A DNA stretch of 42,964 bases from Anaerolineaceae bacterium (GTDB lineage Bacteria > Chloroflexota > Anaerolineae > Anaerolineales > Anaerolineaceae): NCBI GenBank assembly GCA_002702705.1, contig PABH01000048.1, forward strand, positions 1 through 42,964, read 5' to 3'. Positions 3,506-26,879 of this stretch are shown one piece after another. A model generated the notes under the pieces. It was not told the DNA's origin. It made no database searches and worked only from the letters and a program-made list of their open reading frames with translations. The stretch's first letter is position 1; the number at the start of each line of letters is the position of its first letter. The position numbers and the translations under genes are program-made.

Positions 3506-3542
3506 CAACTTTATCCTATGAATTAGAAAAAAGAGGTTCCCA

Positions 3543-4109
3543 TTGTCCGCTCATCAAATTTCATCCCGCCCTGATTTTTTTATTGTGATTGACGTTGAAA
3601 CGTCAGGACCAAACCCAACAAATTATGCCATGTTGTCAATTGGGGCATGTACCATGACCAATCCACGCCAAACCTTTTATGTTGAACTTAAACCGGAACA
3701 ACAGAATTTTACAGCCGAAGCTATGAAAATTAGTGATTTGTCGTTGGAAAGGTTAAAAAAAGAAGGAGAAGAGCCAAAAGACGCCATGCTGGCTTTTGAA
3801 AAATGGCTGTTGGAGGTTGTTCCACCAAACCATAGGGCTGTTTTCACCGCCTTTAATGCCCCATTTGATTGGATGTTTGTGGCCGATTATTTTTTCCGCT
3901 ATCTCAATCGGAATCCATTTGGGCATAAGGCATTGGACATTAAAGCATGGTATATGGGGTTTAAGAATACAAGCTGGGAAGATACTTCCTTTAAAGCAAT
4001 CGTCGAAGCCGAAGGTTTTCCGTCAAAACTATCTCATCACGCTTTGGATGATGCCATTCAAACCGCGAATCTGTTTCAATTTTTATTAGATCAAAACAGG
4101 AGAAATTAA
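3543..4109 (+). CDS. DEDDh 3'-5' exonuclease (DnaQ/RNase T-like superfamily)
   Basis: A 188-residue protein with the whole DEDDh active site. Exo I is VIDVETSG with D17 and E19, Exo II is FNAPFDWMF with D109, and Exo III is HHALDDA with H165 and D170. By family knowledge these residues bind two metal ions and remove nucleotides from 3' ends of DNA or RNA. The protein is a bare exonuclease domain with no polymerase or helicase attached, so RNase T, oligoribonuclease-like and proofreading roles are all possible. Translation starts at TTG 3543, with an AGAGG-like site before it; no in-frame ATG fits the conserved N-terminus. Only one base separates its stop from the next ATG, so it is translationally coupled to the 436-residue protein that follows. 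Confidence 0.85.
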   Translation: MSAHQISSRPDFFIVIDVETSGPNPTNYAMLSIGACTMTNPRQTFYVELKPEQQNFTAEAMKISDLSLERLKKEGEEPKDAMLAFEKWLLEVVPPNHRAVFTAFNAPFDWMFVADYFFRYLNRNPFGHKALDIKAWYMGFKNTSWEDTSFKAIVEAEGFPSKLSHHALDDAIQTANLFQFLLDQNRRN

Positions 4110-4110
4110 T

Positions 4111-5421
4111 ATGTCAAGCGCAAAAAACGACGATCTGCAAAGAATTATTGAATCTGCCCAAAGGATGGGTGTGGAGATGGATGAAGCAGATGCCCTCTCG
4201 TGGTTATCTGCGATAACGGCTCAAAACCAATCTGATATTCAGTTGGATGAGCGGACGGGTATTTTCGGACATACGATCACCTTGTTGGATTTTGATGATT
4301 CTGACCTGGCGCATTTCCGGCAGGTTGGTAAGTTGGTGGAGTTTGATGATATTCCTGGCAAGGTGGAAACCGCCCTGGCGCTTTCCGGTTCGGCAGCACA
4401 GTCCAAAATCCAGACCTATCCCGGTGATGCGGATTTTTTTGAACGGGTTAATATTATCGCGGATACCAAGGAAGAAGCCTGTGTTATTCTCAGCGAAATT
4501 TTAAGGAAAAAAGCGCTCGATACGATCAAAGGGGACACCTATCAATTAATTGAGGTGAAGTTTGGTTCGTATCCGTTTAATATTGTGACCAATGGTAAAT
4601 TACAACATCAGGGTAACCCAATCGCCTGGTATCCAGAACAGATTCAAGCTGGCAAAATACTTGGAAAAAACGAAAAAGGCGAAGATTGTGAAATAACCTG
4701 GGAAGATGTTTCTCATGACCCGGGGTGGTGCAAATTAGATTGGGTGGTAGCCGATCCCGTGCGGAAAAAATTGGTAAATGCCAGTAATATGTTGGACGTC
4801 AGTTGGGAAGGACCGGATGGGAAAATTGTCCCTTTGGATGGTTATCTTGATTCTTATTTCCAAGAGGTTTATCTGGATGGAGAATCGATCCACTTATTCA
4901 GCAAATTGGTGAAACATGTTTCCGGTGACGCGCTGGATCATTATGTTGAACAACTGGAAAAGGAAGTAAAAAAATACGTTACCAAGGACCCCAATTTTGG
5001 CAAAGCAGCCAAACGGCTTTACAATATTTTCCGACTGACCGGAAGGTATTCGGATGCGGCTTTCTTGCGGGAATTGTTTGATGAGCCAACTACCATTCTT
5101 TATCAGGTAGGCGCATTGATTCGTACGATTGATGAAAGTTTTCAACCGGGTTCCAAAATTGATCGTTCCACTATCCTCAGCCAGGCCGACCAACTGATTT
5201 TGGGTGTCACGATGGCATTGGAAGGGGTTAAGGAAATTGAAATTGTGGAGATGTTACTCAATTTCCGCAATTTACTGGCTGAAGATATCAACCGCGGAGA
5301 ACTATCTTCGCAAGCTAACGCAGTACGGGCGGAGTTGGTTAATATCGTTAACAATTTCTTTTACGAGAAACTGACCGGTGTTGATTCGATTAAAACCTAT
5401 TTAGACGAGCTTCAAAATTAA
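4111..5421 (+). CDS. Unrecognised 436-residue protein with a nucleotidyltransferase-like signature
   Basis: I do not recognise a named family. The visible signal is SGS (residues 92-94), eleven residues, then DADF (106-109), i.e. G-S-x(11)-D-x-D. This matches the general nucleotidyltransferase (pol beta superfamily) pattern hG[GS]x(9-13)Dh[DE]h. A candidate third acidic residue lies in the hydrophobic strand KLDWVVAD (D210) or in LIEVKFG (E148). The C-terminal half (about 245-436) is helical, as in substrate-binding domains of such enzymes. No signal peptide or membrane segment is seen, so it is cytoplasmic. It starts one base after the exonuclease gene, with AGGAGA upstream of the ATG. The coupling suggests nucleic-acid end processing. 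This is inference from one motif and could be wrong. Confidence 0.55.
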   Translation: MSSAKNDDLQRIIESAQRMGVEMDEADALSWLSAITAQNQSDIQLDERTGIFGHTITLLDFDDSDLAHFRQVGKLVEFDDIPGKVETALALSGSAAQSKIQTYPGDADFFERVNIIADTKEEACVILSEILRKKALDTIKGDTYQLIEVKFGSYPFNIVTNGKLQHQGNPIAWYPEQIQAGKILGKNEKGEDCEITWEDVSHDPGWCKLDWVVADPVRKKLVNASNMLDVSWEGPDGKIVPLDGYLDSYFQEVYLDGESIHLFSKLVKHVSGDALDHYVEQLEKEVKKYVTKDPNFGKAAKRLYNIFRLTGRYSDAAFLRELFDEPTTILYQVGALIRTIDESFQPGSKIDRSTILSQADQLILGVTMALEGVKEIEIVEMLLNFRNLLAEDINRGELSSQANAVRAELVNIVNNFFYEKLTGVDSIKTYLDELQN

Positions 5422-16027: not shown

Positions 16028-16082
16028 TTAATGATTAAGATTTTATCGTGGTCCTTAATGGTTGGATTTTGATTGGTTTTTG

Positions 16083-16658
16083 TTGGGCACGTGGTTATCA
16101 AATCGCTGTGAGATTAAAGCTCATTTTGCAAAAAAACGATTTGGCCTACCAGACATGCCCAACCTACTGTGTTATATGTTGGGCACGTGGTTATCAAATC
16201 GCCGTGAAATTAAAGCTCATTTTGCAAGAAATCGATTTGGTCTACCAGACATGCCCAACCTACTGTGTTATATGTTGGGCACGTGGTTATCAAATCGCCG
16301 TGAAATTAAGCCTCATTTTGCAAGAAATCGATCTGGCATTCCGGACTTGCCCAACCTACTGTGATTTTTGTTGGGCACGTGGTTATCAAATCGCTGTGAG
16401 ATTAAAGCTCATTTTGCAAAAAAACGATTTGGCCTACCGGACATGCCCAACCTACTGTGATTTTTGTTGGGCACGTGATTATCAAATCGACGTGAAATTA
16501 AAGCTCATTTTGCAAAAAAACGATCTGGCATTCCGGACTTGCCCAACCTACTGTGTTATATGTTGGGCACGTGGTTATCAAATCGCCGTGAGATTAAGCC
16601 TCATATTGCAAGAAATCGATCTGGCCTACCGGACATACCCAACCGACCGATTATTCGC
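16083..16658. repeat. Six tandem 96 bp palindromic repeats between convergent genes
   Basis: Units begin at 16083, 16179, 16275, 16371, 16467 and 16563, always exactly 96 bases apart. Each unit opens with GTTGGGCACGTGGTTATCAA (one substitution in unit 5) and carries TGCCCAAC about 74 bases after its first base. Inner arms CAAATCG and CGATTTG also pair, so each unit can fold into a large imperfect stem-loop. Substitutions occur in mosaic combinations among units, suggesting recombination or gene conversion. Unit 6 decays at its right edge and runs into the gltB stop codon at 16651-16653. The whole array is therefore the shared 3' flank of the GH13 gene (+) and gltB (-). Because 96 is a multiple of three, a long frame stays open across it; I regard that as accidental. 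Confidence 0.93.
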
Positions 16659-19600
16659 CCATATCCTCAAAGACCATGTCTTCTTCACTGATATCTTCCA
16701 AAGAAAGGGCGACCACTTTTAGAAAGCTGGCTTGGATGGTCTTTTCGTCTGTCATTAAGCGGATGTGGTCTGCGGTTTCGTATTGGTAGGTTTGTTCGAG
16801 GACATCAATGTATTCATTTAACAATTCAACGATAGCTCGGATATCTTTTTTGTTGACCGGCAGCACCTTAACCTGGGCACCAATCGCAATTCGTTTTTGG
16901 AGCGCATTTTCATCAAAACCCATTTCCGGGGTTAATTTTTGATACACAACCCCACCCGTCATGCCGGAAAATGCATACGGTCCGGGGTCGCCCAGAATAA
17001 CAACCCGCCCGGCGGTCATGTATTCGCAGGCGAACCCTTTCAGGTTGGCGTGGGTGGCGGTGCGTAATTTTTCTTCGTTGATCGGTTCGGTGATTTCACC
17101 ACCCAAAACGACATCCGCACCGGAGAGGCGGATACAGGCGCGTGAATCGGCGTTACCCTGAATGATGAGGGTGCCGTCCTGCGCACCATAGGCGAAACTT
17201 TTACCCACGGAACCATCAATGCGGACCCCTTCGTGATTAACACCTTTCATGACGGCTACCCGTCCCCCGCAGGCTCCTTTGGCCGTGCCGTCCTGCGCGC
17301 CACCTTCAATAATAATATCCAGCGGTTCGGCCAGCCAGGCTGAAAAACCATTGCCTGCGATGGAGGATGGTCCAAAGCGTAAATGTAGCCGGTTGAGGCG
17401 ATCCCGAATGGCAGGGGTGCGGGCCAATGCACCGACGATGTGTGATCCAAGTGCACGGTCAATCGCCATGACGGCATCCTGATAGGTGATCTCTTTTTCA
17501 TCATCCTGGGTGATGGTTTCGGTGATGATTTCACTTAACAAACGGGTCAGGTTGTTGCGTGGGCGTACCAACAGGCGGCCGATGCCGGGTTCCAGTTCCG
17601 GACGGGGCCGCAGCGGAACCGCTTCAAACATGGCACTTAAGTCTACCTGATCATGGGCTGAAATTTGTTCAAGTAGGTCACCCCGACCAACCAGGTCCTG
17701 TAAACGCTGGGCACCCAAGCGAGCGGAAATCTGGCGCAGCTCTTCCGCCATTCCGGTGAACAAGCGTTTTAATTGTTCCACCGCTTCTTCATAAATCTGC
17801 GGTGTGAATACCTTTACTCCGTTTTCCAGTGCTTCTTCCTTGCTGGTAAGCTGGGTGGTGATGCCGACCAGACAGGTCCCTTCTTCACATTTACGGCAGA
17901 TGGTACAACCGATGGCAACCATGGGCATGGTGCCGAAACCAACCCGGTTTGCCCCCAACAGGATCATCTTAACCACATCTTCACCCATTTTCATGCCGCC
18001 ATCACACCAAATTTCAACCTTATGGCGTAAACCAGCTTCTACCAGAGCACGGTGAGCCTGGATCACACCAACTTCTGCCGGCAGACCGACAAATTCAAGG
18101 GCGTGTTTGCGGGCCGCTCCGGTGCCGCCATCATAACCACTCAGGCTGATGATATCTGCGCCTGCTTTGGCGATACCAACTGCGATCACGCCAATGCCAG
18201 GCACAACCGGGCACTTAACGGAAATTTTGGCCTGGGGATTAACTACTTTCAGTTCTTCAATTAACTGGGCCAGGTCCTCGATGGAGTATAGATCGTGGTT
18301 GTTGGATGGTGATAAGAGGGAAACCCCAGGTGTGGTACGGCGCGCTTCGGCAACTTTGACGGATACTTTATAACCAGGCAGCATACCACCTTCACCCGGT
18401 TTCGCACCCTGTCCGATTTTAATTTCCAACACGGCGGCGGAATTAAGAAACTCGGCGTTTACACCGAACCGTCCTGAGGCGACCTGCTGACCACGATTTT
18501 TGGTGTATTTATTTAGGATAGAAGAAAGTTCTCCACCTTCACCGTTGATACAGATCATATTTAATTGGGCTGCCGCTTCCGCATATGCCCGGAAGGAAGC
18601 TTCACCCTGAGAACCAAAAGACATGGCGCTAATCAGGAAAGGCAGGTCGTGGTCTTCGATGCTTAAATCAACCTGACTGGGCATGACGGTACCATGTACA
18701 TTTTTAAAACCGATCACATGGCGCAGTGCCACCGGTAAATCCGTTTTTAGTTTTTCAAAGGTATCCAAAAACTGGTCATAACTGCTCTGCGATTTGGCAA
18801 ATAAACCAATTTGTTTCCATAATTTGGGGTAAAAATGATCCACCCGGTCCATTTTATTACCGGGGGCCTGCGCTTGTATTTCAGAACAGCGTTGGACTGA
18901 TTCCTGATTTAAGCGTTCCCAGGTGATACCCGCGTTTTCCGCACCAAAATAATTGGGTGTTCGTAAAACCGCCGCAACTTGCGGTGAGAGTCCAATCGAG
19001 CTGCACACCCGCCCATAACCACGTAGTTCATGGCAGCCCATTGTGGAGATCACTTTTTCCAGCCCGGCTTTCAGGCTGTAAAGAATGAGTTCTTGTGCTT
19101 GCAGCGGTGTGAGATCTTTCTTTTTGGAAGATTGGAGAATGGTGGCTGCAAATAATGCATAAGGAGCCACGGCATCCACGCCCAAACCGGATAACAACAC
19201 AATATCGTGTAAGTTACGAACAGCGGCGGAACGGATCACCAAACCAACCCGGCGGCGCAGGTTTGACCTTTTGGCCTTGGCTCGTTGGCGCAGGGCTTCA
19301 TCAATGCTGGAAACTGCCAGCATGGGGTCAAGCCATCCCAAGCCGTCTTTGTGGGTTAAATAATCATCCAGGATCAAACACTGTGTACCTTTTTCAACGG
19401 CTTCCACGGCCTGATTACCCAACCGGGTTAATGCTGTTTGCACATCTTCATCCGGCAGGGTGCCCAATACCACCCAGGTTGTGTATCCCTGAAATGTTTC
19501 CAATACATTTTCCAGGGTGTAGGTGCCGAATGAATCAGCCAGTTCTTGTAATTGGTCTGCTTCTCCCAGTGCGGGGTGCCCACCCAGGAGGATGGGGATT

Positions 19601-26617: not shown

Positions 26618-26668
26618 AGGGGCGGTAATGGGTTGACAGGGGAAACTTGGGTGATTACCACCCGGAGG
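26618..26668. repeat. GC-rich palindromic repeat, copy 2 of 5 (left arm degenerate)
   Basis: The right arm ATTACCACCCGGAGG is intact, but the left arm has drifted to GGGGCGGTAAT and pairs only partly (GGCGGTAAT with ATTACCACC, one mismatch). The TTTGGGATTATGAATAAA flank is shared with copy 1. Confidence 0.7.
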
Positions 26669-26701
26669 GGGAGTTGAAATTCAACAGATAAATAAAAATA
26701 A

Positions 26702-26758
26702 CCCTCCGGGTGGGTGATGTGTTGGCAGGACTGCTTGGGTTATCACCACCCGGAGGGG
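26702..26758. repeat. GC-rich palindromic repeat, copy 3 of 5
   Basis: CCCTCCGGGTGG pairs with CCACCCGGAGGG, with GTGAT/ATCAC partly extending the stem. The A-rich flank AGATAAATAAAAATAA is shared with copy 4. Confidence 0.85.
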
Positions 26759-26790
26759 AAGTTAAAATTCAAGAGATAAATAAAAATAAA

Positions 26791-26845
26791 CCTCCGGGTG
26801 GGTGATTTGTTGACAGAGGTGCCTGCCTTATCACCCACCCGGAGG
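26791..26845. repeat. GC-rich palindromic repeat, copy 4 of 5 (perfect 16 bp stem)
   Basis: CCTCCGGGTGGGTGAT (26791-26806) and ATCACCCACCCGGAGG (26830-26845) are perfectly complementary around a 23-base loop. This is the best-preserved member and gives the family consensus. Confidence 0.88.
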
Positions 26846-26879
26846 GTAGATTTAAAACAGCAAGATTTTTAATTTCTAT

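Follow-up and report, generated by a model that had tools for sequence, protein, structure and literature searches.

Two groups of described proteins frame the gene pair reported here, which lies on contig PABH01000048.1 of an Anaerolineaceae bacterium (phylum Chloroflexota; assembly GCA_002702705.1) and consists of an exonuclease gene, EXO, followed by a gene for a 436-residue protein, NT. The window that we analyzed is the whole contig of 42,964 bases (positions 1 to 42,964). The closest described exonuclease is Cap18 of Escherichia coli, structure 7t2s (PMC11208441, PMC12345164). In the parts of this literature that were available, Cap18 is named as an uncharacterised exonuclease of an operon of the cyclic-oligonucleotide-based anti-phage signaling system (CBASS), with phage protection unaffected by the catalytic mutation D165N (PMC9122588); it is said to degrade single-stranded DNA or single-stranded RNA (review, PMC10419184), and a Cap18-like protein is placed outside CBASS, in Borgs (PMC11208441).

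The proteins that stand closest to NT in predicted fold are viral. They include the Megaviridae nucleotidyltransferases of the Mg662 type, solved as 4amq, 4ams and 4xul, the last with GTP bound according to its title. The accessible portions of the virophage literature describe the 442-residue ORF7 of Zamilon as a homologue of Sputnik V21 (PMC3991649), tie V21 through HHpred and Phyre2 to a putative transferase of Mimivirus (PMC5786535), repeat a suggestion that V21 is a transcription factor (PMC8490762), and mark genes of virus insertions in protist genomes as nucleotidyl transferase (PMC10120064). Our literature search found no publication on the activity of Mg662, none that brings virophages and nucleotidyltransferases together with V21 or with Zamilon, and no description of a nucleotidyltransferase/exonuclease operon in Anaerolineae. 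Mg662 itself appears as a row of a table in one paper.

Predicted fold of NT

AlphaFold2 models were obtained for NT of the window (model 1; 52 rows, predicted local distance difference test score (pLDDT) 75.7, predicted template-modeling score (pTM) 0.61) and for NT of Bellilinea (model 2; 80 rows, pLDDT 76.3, pTM 0.56), both of middling confidence. Foldseek comparison with the PDB at E ≤ 0.001 returned only three matches per model, and these were the same three, 4amq, 4ams and 4xul, each with probability 1.00. In VIA-align they reached Z of 18.4, 18.0 and 15.8 over 302, 300 and 289 residues for model 1, the next rows (a helical bundle and a channel, both unrelated) standing at 8.8, and Z of 17.1, 16.8 and 15.2 for model 2, followed by 7.6. 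Both models share one order of elements, given in the numbering of the window protein: strand 85–91, the GS helix, strand 106–116 with the DxD at its start, helix 120–137, strand 144–153, strand 207–215 with D210, and then a helical C-terminal region. The likeness to the Mg662 type extends over about 300 residues and takes in this C-terminal region, whereas identity to NT is 8–12%, the host of NT is bacterial, and the alignment leaves out 30–60 residues at the N-terminus of NT. A pol-beta-like nucleotidyltransferase fold is therefore what the predicted models support well, and the first-pass annotation, which had proposed a candidate nucleotidyltransferase to be checked by structure prediction, is borne out by the match to solved nucleotidyltransferases.

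Among models of viral proteins, 15 matches were obtained at E ≤ 0.001, all with probability 1.00. The top match, a 442-residue Zamilon protein (E 2.3e-14, template-modeling score 0.56, 16% identity), is a BFVD entry taken as Zamilon ORF7 by its length and virus name, and further matches came from mavirus, the Qinghai Lake and Yellowstone Lake virophages, Pithovirus (labeled 'Nucleotidyl transferase'), Klosneuvirus, Tupanvirus and Fadolivirus ('V21 virophage-like protein'). The virophage V21 family, with Sputnik V21, Zamilon ORF7 and V21-like proteins of Orpheovirus and Fadolivirus, provides the best viral model match to NT; it differs in being viral, in showing no sequence-level match to NT, and in that the available descriptions mention no exonuclease partner. 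As the link between V21 and a transferase is already in print, the literature connects viral proteins of the same sorts that our fold search brings up. What is new is that the predicted models link NT structurally to the V21 and Mg662 proteins. The only clear structural relatives of NT found here are thus viral proteins that are called, in the accessible sources, hypothetical, transcription-factor-like or putative transferases.

Active site and family status of NT

NT carries the motif G93-S94-x11-D106-x-D108 and, further on, K208-L209-D210. The exact GS-x11-DxD occurs in one of the 42 stop-to-stop frames of at least 150 codons in the window, which is NT; the motif by itself would nevertheless be only modest evidence, because the looser G[ST]-x8-14-DxD is found in four of these frames, NT among them. 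Conservation was assessed in an alignment of 114 sequences (113 loci and the window; 108 distinct), in which G93, S94, Q97, D106, D108, R112, D229 and D243 are invariant and D210 is replaced once, so that the residues picked out by the first-pass annotation are both present as it had described and kept across the homologues. Part of family f44 has PAD for PGD (G105 is alanine in 7 of the 114) and keeps the DxD. NT agrees with the nucleotidyltransferase superfamily in the hG[ST] and DxD/E motifs and in a presumed third acid, placed on a later core strand by the models. The most divergent NT of alignment A5 (L125:6297-7622, genome G477; 39% identity) has glycine in place of D210 and tyrosine in place of K208, and judging from these replacements its branch is perhaps altered or inactive.

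Profile searches returned nothing for NT. Zero matches were obtained at E ≤ 5 in Pfam, NCBIfam, PHROGs and PADLOC, which covers the CD-NTase profiles (PADLOC, Pfam, NCBIfam) and those of the MNT-HEPN and AbiE nucleotidyltransferases (Pfam, PADLOC). When 35 diverse NT members were compared with Pfam at E ≤ 1, 27 families were hit; among the 25 shown, the best E was 0.0056, each family was hit in at most two members, and PF01743, the family of CCA-adding and poly(A) enzymes, was absent. Sequence searches of the PDB with the single protein and with the profiles A3 and A5 gave nothing meaningful, and hmmsearch with both profiles found no Mg662 chain at E ≤ 10. Adenylosuccinate synthetase reached E 0.016 with the single protein, and the profiles gave nothing better than E 0.6; both results were taken as noise. 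Together, the fold matches, the conserved residues and the lack of profile matches identify NT, as modeled, as a protein of nucleotidyltransferase fold whose active-site signature is complete and which represents an undescribed bacterial family, and we regard this identity as well supported. The earlier remark that NT could not be placed in a known family accordingly holds for the profile libraries, but by structure NT is grouped with the Mg662/4amq-type proteins of Megaviridae and the V21-type proteins of virophages.

EXO is a Cap18-like exonuclease

EXO matched RNase_T in Pfam (E 7.1e-13) and the exonuclease model PDLC00753 of PADLOC (E 1.1e-63). In the PDB the top chain was 7t2s (E 3.4e-42; EXO residues 10–181 aligned with 5–176 of Cap18), the next chain following at E 2.7e-5. 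By its sequence, EXO is a bare-domain Cap18-like DEDDh 3'-5' exonuclease with a complete active site, its intact DEDDh residues being given in Table 1; D165 of Cap18 corresponds to D170 of EXO, provided that the alignment is ungapped. EXO differs from Cap18 in that no CBASS genes were found nearby and that its partner is NT. It is thus Cap18-like in sequence with no sign of a CBASS location here, and shows an exonuclease of the Cap18 type that has a stable partner in a non-CBASS setting. A relative of EXO (34% identity, E 6e-20) was also seen in a 462-kb uncultured phage record (LR756500.1:158899-159396), and no NT was found in the phage collection.

Pairing of EXO and NT

A GTDB scan reported 199 NT relatives, of which 80 were kept. 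In 63 of these 80 loci EXO preceded NT on the same strand, two of the 63 (L047, L054) being short partial matches; the other 17 had no upstream EXO, and in at least one of them (L051) the contig left no room for it. Across 301 genomes of the order, EXO scores of matches at E ≤ 1e-25 were bimodal, with 61 close carriers (≥225 bits) and 8 distant ones (99–130 bits). NT was present in 59 of the 61 close carriers, on the same contig as EXO in 57, and 54 of those 57 had EXO directly upstream of NT, on the same strand and within 300 bases. The Fisher test for co-occurrence gave p 8e-39, not corrected for kinship. Seven families within the order contain paired genes (f1, f5, f8, f9, f12, f13 and f14). 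NT without EXO (27 genomes) was commoner than EXO without NT (2 genomes). On the NT tree, the presence of EXO required at least 17 changes by parsimony, 9 of them forced by well-supported branches, compared with 33 for shuffled labels (a few labels being unsure), and the EXO and NT distance matrices correlated with r 0.75 over 66 pairs, with a maximum of 0.16 in 999 permutations. Within the order the pair thus occurs widely, and it is often maintained as a unit but at times split; this pattern is well supported, and the conserved pairing that had been proposed as a check on the locus proved to be frequent.

Several unusual arrangements were noted. Very long frames in L100–L103 (895–1188 codons), tried as fusion proteins, were read as open high-GC frames, their extra residues looking non-coding by eye. 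A 318-codon frame in a metagenome-assembled genome (MAG) that is 58% complete (G600:C267:10566-11489) matches the EXO profile at 2–149 and the NT profile at 266–434 with a 27-base overlap, and is a chimera or an internal deletion. In G524, a genome without close EXO, a divergent DEDDh exonuclease (L126:5507-6070; 28% identity to EXO) lies convergent to NT at about 145 bases; its sequence makes a replacement for EXO possible.

Distribution and descent of NT

Of 41 relatives 10 carried NT, as did 86 of 301 from the order and 23 of 400 genomes drawn from the phylum (one as a fragment), each count including the window's own genome; a family without a profile in the four libraries is thus present in more than a quarter of the genomes examined in the order. 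Most of the 80 kept rows are titled Chloroflexi, Chloroflexota or subgroups of it, with further rows titled WS1 (L040), Armatimonadetes (L051, L080), Acidimicrobiia (L064) and Actinomycetota (L081). In the NT tree the families are intermixed, and the rows titled Actinomycetota, Armatimonadetes and WS1 are nested inside; mis-binned MAG contigs are possible. Within the genus, identity to the window was 57–65% for MeaB and 60–67% for NT, and beyond it (G014, G032, G037) 53–55% and 59–62%. Horizontal transfer of NT or a stronger constraint on it would both fit these sequence values. GltB was dropped as a yardstick of divergence, being found in just 2 of 10 genomes.

No NT relatives were found in plasmids or phages (E ≤ 1) or in IMG/VR. 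One 103-codon frame (L150), among 13 IMG/VR contigs found with a degenerate PGDID-type pattern, scored 8.2 bits (E 0.00079 in a 13-sequence search), which passes the inclusion line. It was not counted as a relative, because the frame is short and matches through the very motif that had been searched for.

Neighboring genes

The 8-kb flanks of the 80 NT loci were clustered, with frames overlapping NT or EXO set aside, and the 40 largest clusters were inspected. Besides EXO and NT, none of these clusters covered more than 11 of the 80 loci: two reached 11 (an ABC-transporter-like frame and a 2H gene), two reached 10 (DUF1232 and a DUF4864-like gene), and the rest 8 or fewer. The 2H gene, of the 2'-5' RNA ligase/2H phosphoesterase family (PF13563), lies downstream of NT, and its 11 loci make up exactly one clade of the NT tree. 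At L050:9314-10383, the genes after NT are those for a YdcZ-type exporter and a 2'-5' RNA ligase-type protein.

Nearest neighbors were taken with a composition-based frame picker, which is crude, and numbered 119 (62 upstream, 57 downstream); 107 were scanned after those longer than 700 aa or containing X had been dropped. Among the 25 of 102 Pfam families shown were DnaG (5), 2H (5), MFS (4), glycosyltransferase (4), YdcZ (4) and sigma-70 (3), together with others. The PADLOC labels at E ≤ 1e-15 were RT_UG29 and RTasDnaG-like, each on 5 proteins that are probably the five DnaG matches, and a desaturase label on 2 proteins. No CBASS-like genes or effector were found among these 107 neighbors (25 of 102 Pfam families shown; PADLOC at the threshold given, genes further out not being PADLOC-scanned), and no HEPN or antitoxin family was among the 25 commonest of the 102 neighbor families. 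A defense island therefore has no support among the nearest neighbors, and neither has the defense role floated in the first-pass annotation. In genomes lacking EXO, NT stands beside genes that we take to be ribosomal S20, ThrS, MurJ, MutS or aldehyde dehydrogenase.

Proposed function

CCA-adding enzymes and poly(A) polymerases add nucleotides without a template and belong to the nucleotidyltransferase superfamily too. The pair had been likened to RNase T acting with CCA addition, an analogy weakened by the distribution of PF01743, which is present in 296 of the 301 genomes of the order and in all 174 of the high-quality ones. Two PF01743 proteins are retained in the window's own genome, whereas NT has no Pfam match. 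The reading of NT as a replacement for a lost CCA enzyme is rejected, since PF01743 is kept almost everywhere.

We tentatively propose, as a reading that we hold possible and short of probable, that the two genes belong together functionally, as an accessory pair that trims and adds at 3' ends, probably of RNA. EXO would remove nucleotides from single-stranded 3' ends and NT would transfer nucleotides without a template, so that damaged, mis-tailed or over-long ends would be trimmed by the one and restored or marked by the other. The genetic linkage of an intact 3' exonuclease with the fold of a template-independent polymerase makes 3'-end editing the simplest explanation. The nucleotidyltransferases that come next after the Mg662-type structures for model 1, namely poly(A) polymerase, Tut1 and cGAS, work without a template. 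The pairing itself is well supported; that either enzyme is active, that the two act together, that 3' ends are the acceptor and that RNA is the substrate we infer. RNA may be weakly favored over DNA, because poly(A) and uridylyl transferases rank among the remote fold matches and a 2H partner occurs occasionally.

A number of points weigh against this proposal. In model 1, pLDDT falls below 50 at residues 15–23, 31–60, 94–105 and 248–251, and as the third of these stretches is the GS loop, the model does not define the geometry of the active site. The remote nucleotidyltransferases ranked below helical bundles for model 1 (poly(A) polymerase Z 6.8, Tut1 6.7, cGAS 6.5, CdnG 6.1), all below Z 8, a range that the tool deems uninformative and in which margins of less than 1 are ties. 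Cap18, the model exonuclease, itself appears to be without a known role in E. coli CBASS, as far as the available text of PMC9122588 goes. Close EXO is lacking from 27 of the 86 NT genomes, and NT can thus persist alone; in family f44, where both are present, EXO and NT lie in divergent orientation (L104, L109). Neither the Fisher test nor the distance correlation accounts for shared descent, and the 2H gene, confined to one clade, may be inherited synteny that deserves little weight.

The alternatives bear on these same observations. If the pair worked on DNA, EXO would trim single-stranded 3' ends and NT would add deoxynucleotides without a template, as an accessory to repair or end joining; the reported degradation of DNA as well as RNA by Cap18 (PMC10419184, in its accessible part) agrees with this. 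So do the DNA polymerase mu and terminal deoxynucleotidyl transferase structures at Z 6.1–6.5 with model 2, DnaG primase as 5 of the 107 nearest neighbors, and the NT of L125, which starts a few bases after a frame that we take to be MutS. DNA-linked neighbors are, however, a small minority, and poly(A)/uridylyl-type enzymes and cGAS lead the remote nucleotidyltransferase rows, by differences of less than 1 in Z that amount to ties, and we consider a DNA role unlikely. A smaller chance falls to a CBASS-like arrangement, in which NT would make a nucleotide second messenger and EXO would be an ancillary nuclease of the Cap18 type. A nucleotidyltransferase fold, shared with CD-NTases and cGAS, does adjoin a nuclease whose best solved relative comes from a CBASS operon (PMC9122588, as available); the fold match to CD-NTases is only about Z 6, however, far below the Z of 18 with Mg662, and NT matches no CD-NTase profile. 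A messenger role is further weakened because no effector recurs, no gene other than NT and EXO exceeding 11 of the 80 loci in the clusters inspected; PADLOC labeled only DnaG-like DRT models and a desaturase among the neighbors, and the accessible description of Borgs already places a Cap18-like protein outside CBASS (PMC11208441).

Transfer of single nucleotides without a template is common in the nucleotidyltransferase superfamily. NT might accordingly attach a nucleotide to tRNA or to a protein, in the manner of MNT/AbiEii/MenT toxins or regulators, EXO then providing the counter-activity, and AadA-type enzymes do appear weakly in Foldseek (E 0.09–0.15, model 2). NT is larger than such proteins, though, with a helical C-terminal region that matches Mg662, the commonest neighbor families shown include neither HEPN nor antitoxins, and a mean column identity of 66% in alignment A5 is, in our judgment, unusual for a toxin; we give this reading less weight again. 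Least probable is that EXO and NT are merely neighbors, independent accessory enzymes joined by chance or by joint transfer: the NT genomes without close EXO and the divergent genes of f44 would be expected, whereas the presence of NT in nearly all close carriers, usually within 300 bases and in seven families, would not.

Returning to the editing of 3' ends, a bolder form of the proposal, which we consider doubtful, would make the Cap18-like exonuclease and the template-independent polymerase one bacterial 3'-end editing machine, with the polymerase as a cellular branch of the V21/Mg662 proteins. If true, these viral proteins would gain a function, and their origin might be bacterial. What the fold family does can be tested directly in bacteria, because cultured species such as Bellilinea caldifistulae have a member with a nuclease linked to it.

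The locus and other features of the window

The coordinates of the pair are collected in Table 1. Both reading frames are on the plus strand, one base separates the stop of EXO from the start of NT, and the layout given by the first-pass annotation, an exonuclease followed by the 436-residue protein, was found unchanged. Since the AGGAG of NT lies within the 3' end of EXO, translational coupling of the two genes is plausible from the sequence.

Table 1. Coordinates of the EXO–NT genes, their start signals and putative functional residues in the window
Feature	Position	Strand	Remarks
AGAGG, ribosome-binding-like	3532..3536	+	six bases ahead of the EXO TTG; read directly
EXO gene	3543..4109	+	TTG start 3543, stop 4107-4109; 188 aa; intact
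D17 + E19, DEDDh site	3591..3599	+	69/69 EXO sequences
D109, DEDDh site	3867..3869	+	69/69 EXO sequences
H165 + D170, DEDDh site	4035..4052	+	67/69 EXO sequences; gaps there in the other two rows
AGGAG, Shine-Dalgarno-like	4098..4102	+	within the last EXO codons, eight bases ahead of the NT ATG; read directly
NT gene	4111..5421	+	ATG 4111, stop 5419-5421; 436 aa; intact
G93-S94, nucleotidyltransferase motif	4387..4392	+	114/114 homologues
D106-x-D108, presumed metal-binding acids	4426..4434	+	114/114 homologues; start of predicted strand 106-116
D210, presumed third acid	4738..4740	+	113/114 homologues, G in L125; predicted strand 207-215
C-terminal all-helical region of NT, about residues 257-435	4879..5415	+	DSSP of the model; within the 4xul-aligned model range 59-436

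Upstream of the pair, the window encodes a B12-binding protein and MeaB, and downstream, on the opposite strand, a GNAT acetyltransferase and a 4Fe-4S protein. Elsewhere in the window, a 96-base unit with inverted ends (GTTGGGCA...TGCCCAAC) is repeated in tandem about six times (89% matches) at positions 16081-16644, next to a gene for a 1561-aa glutamate-synthase-like protein; the 224-aa reading frame at 16048-16722 that runs over this repeat is probably an artefact of it. An 88-base tandem repeat of 2.3 copies, with the inverted arms CCACCCGGAGG/CCTCCGGGTGG, lies at 26646-26846.

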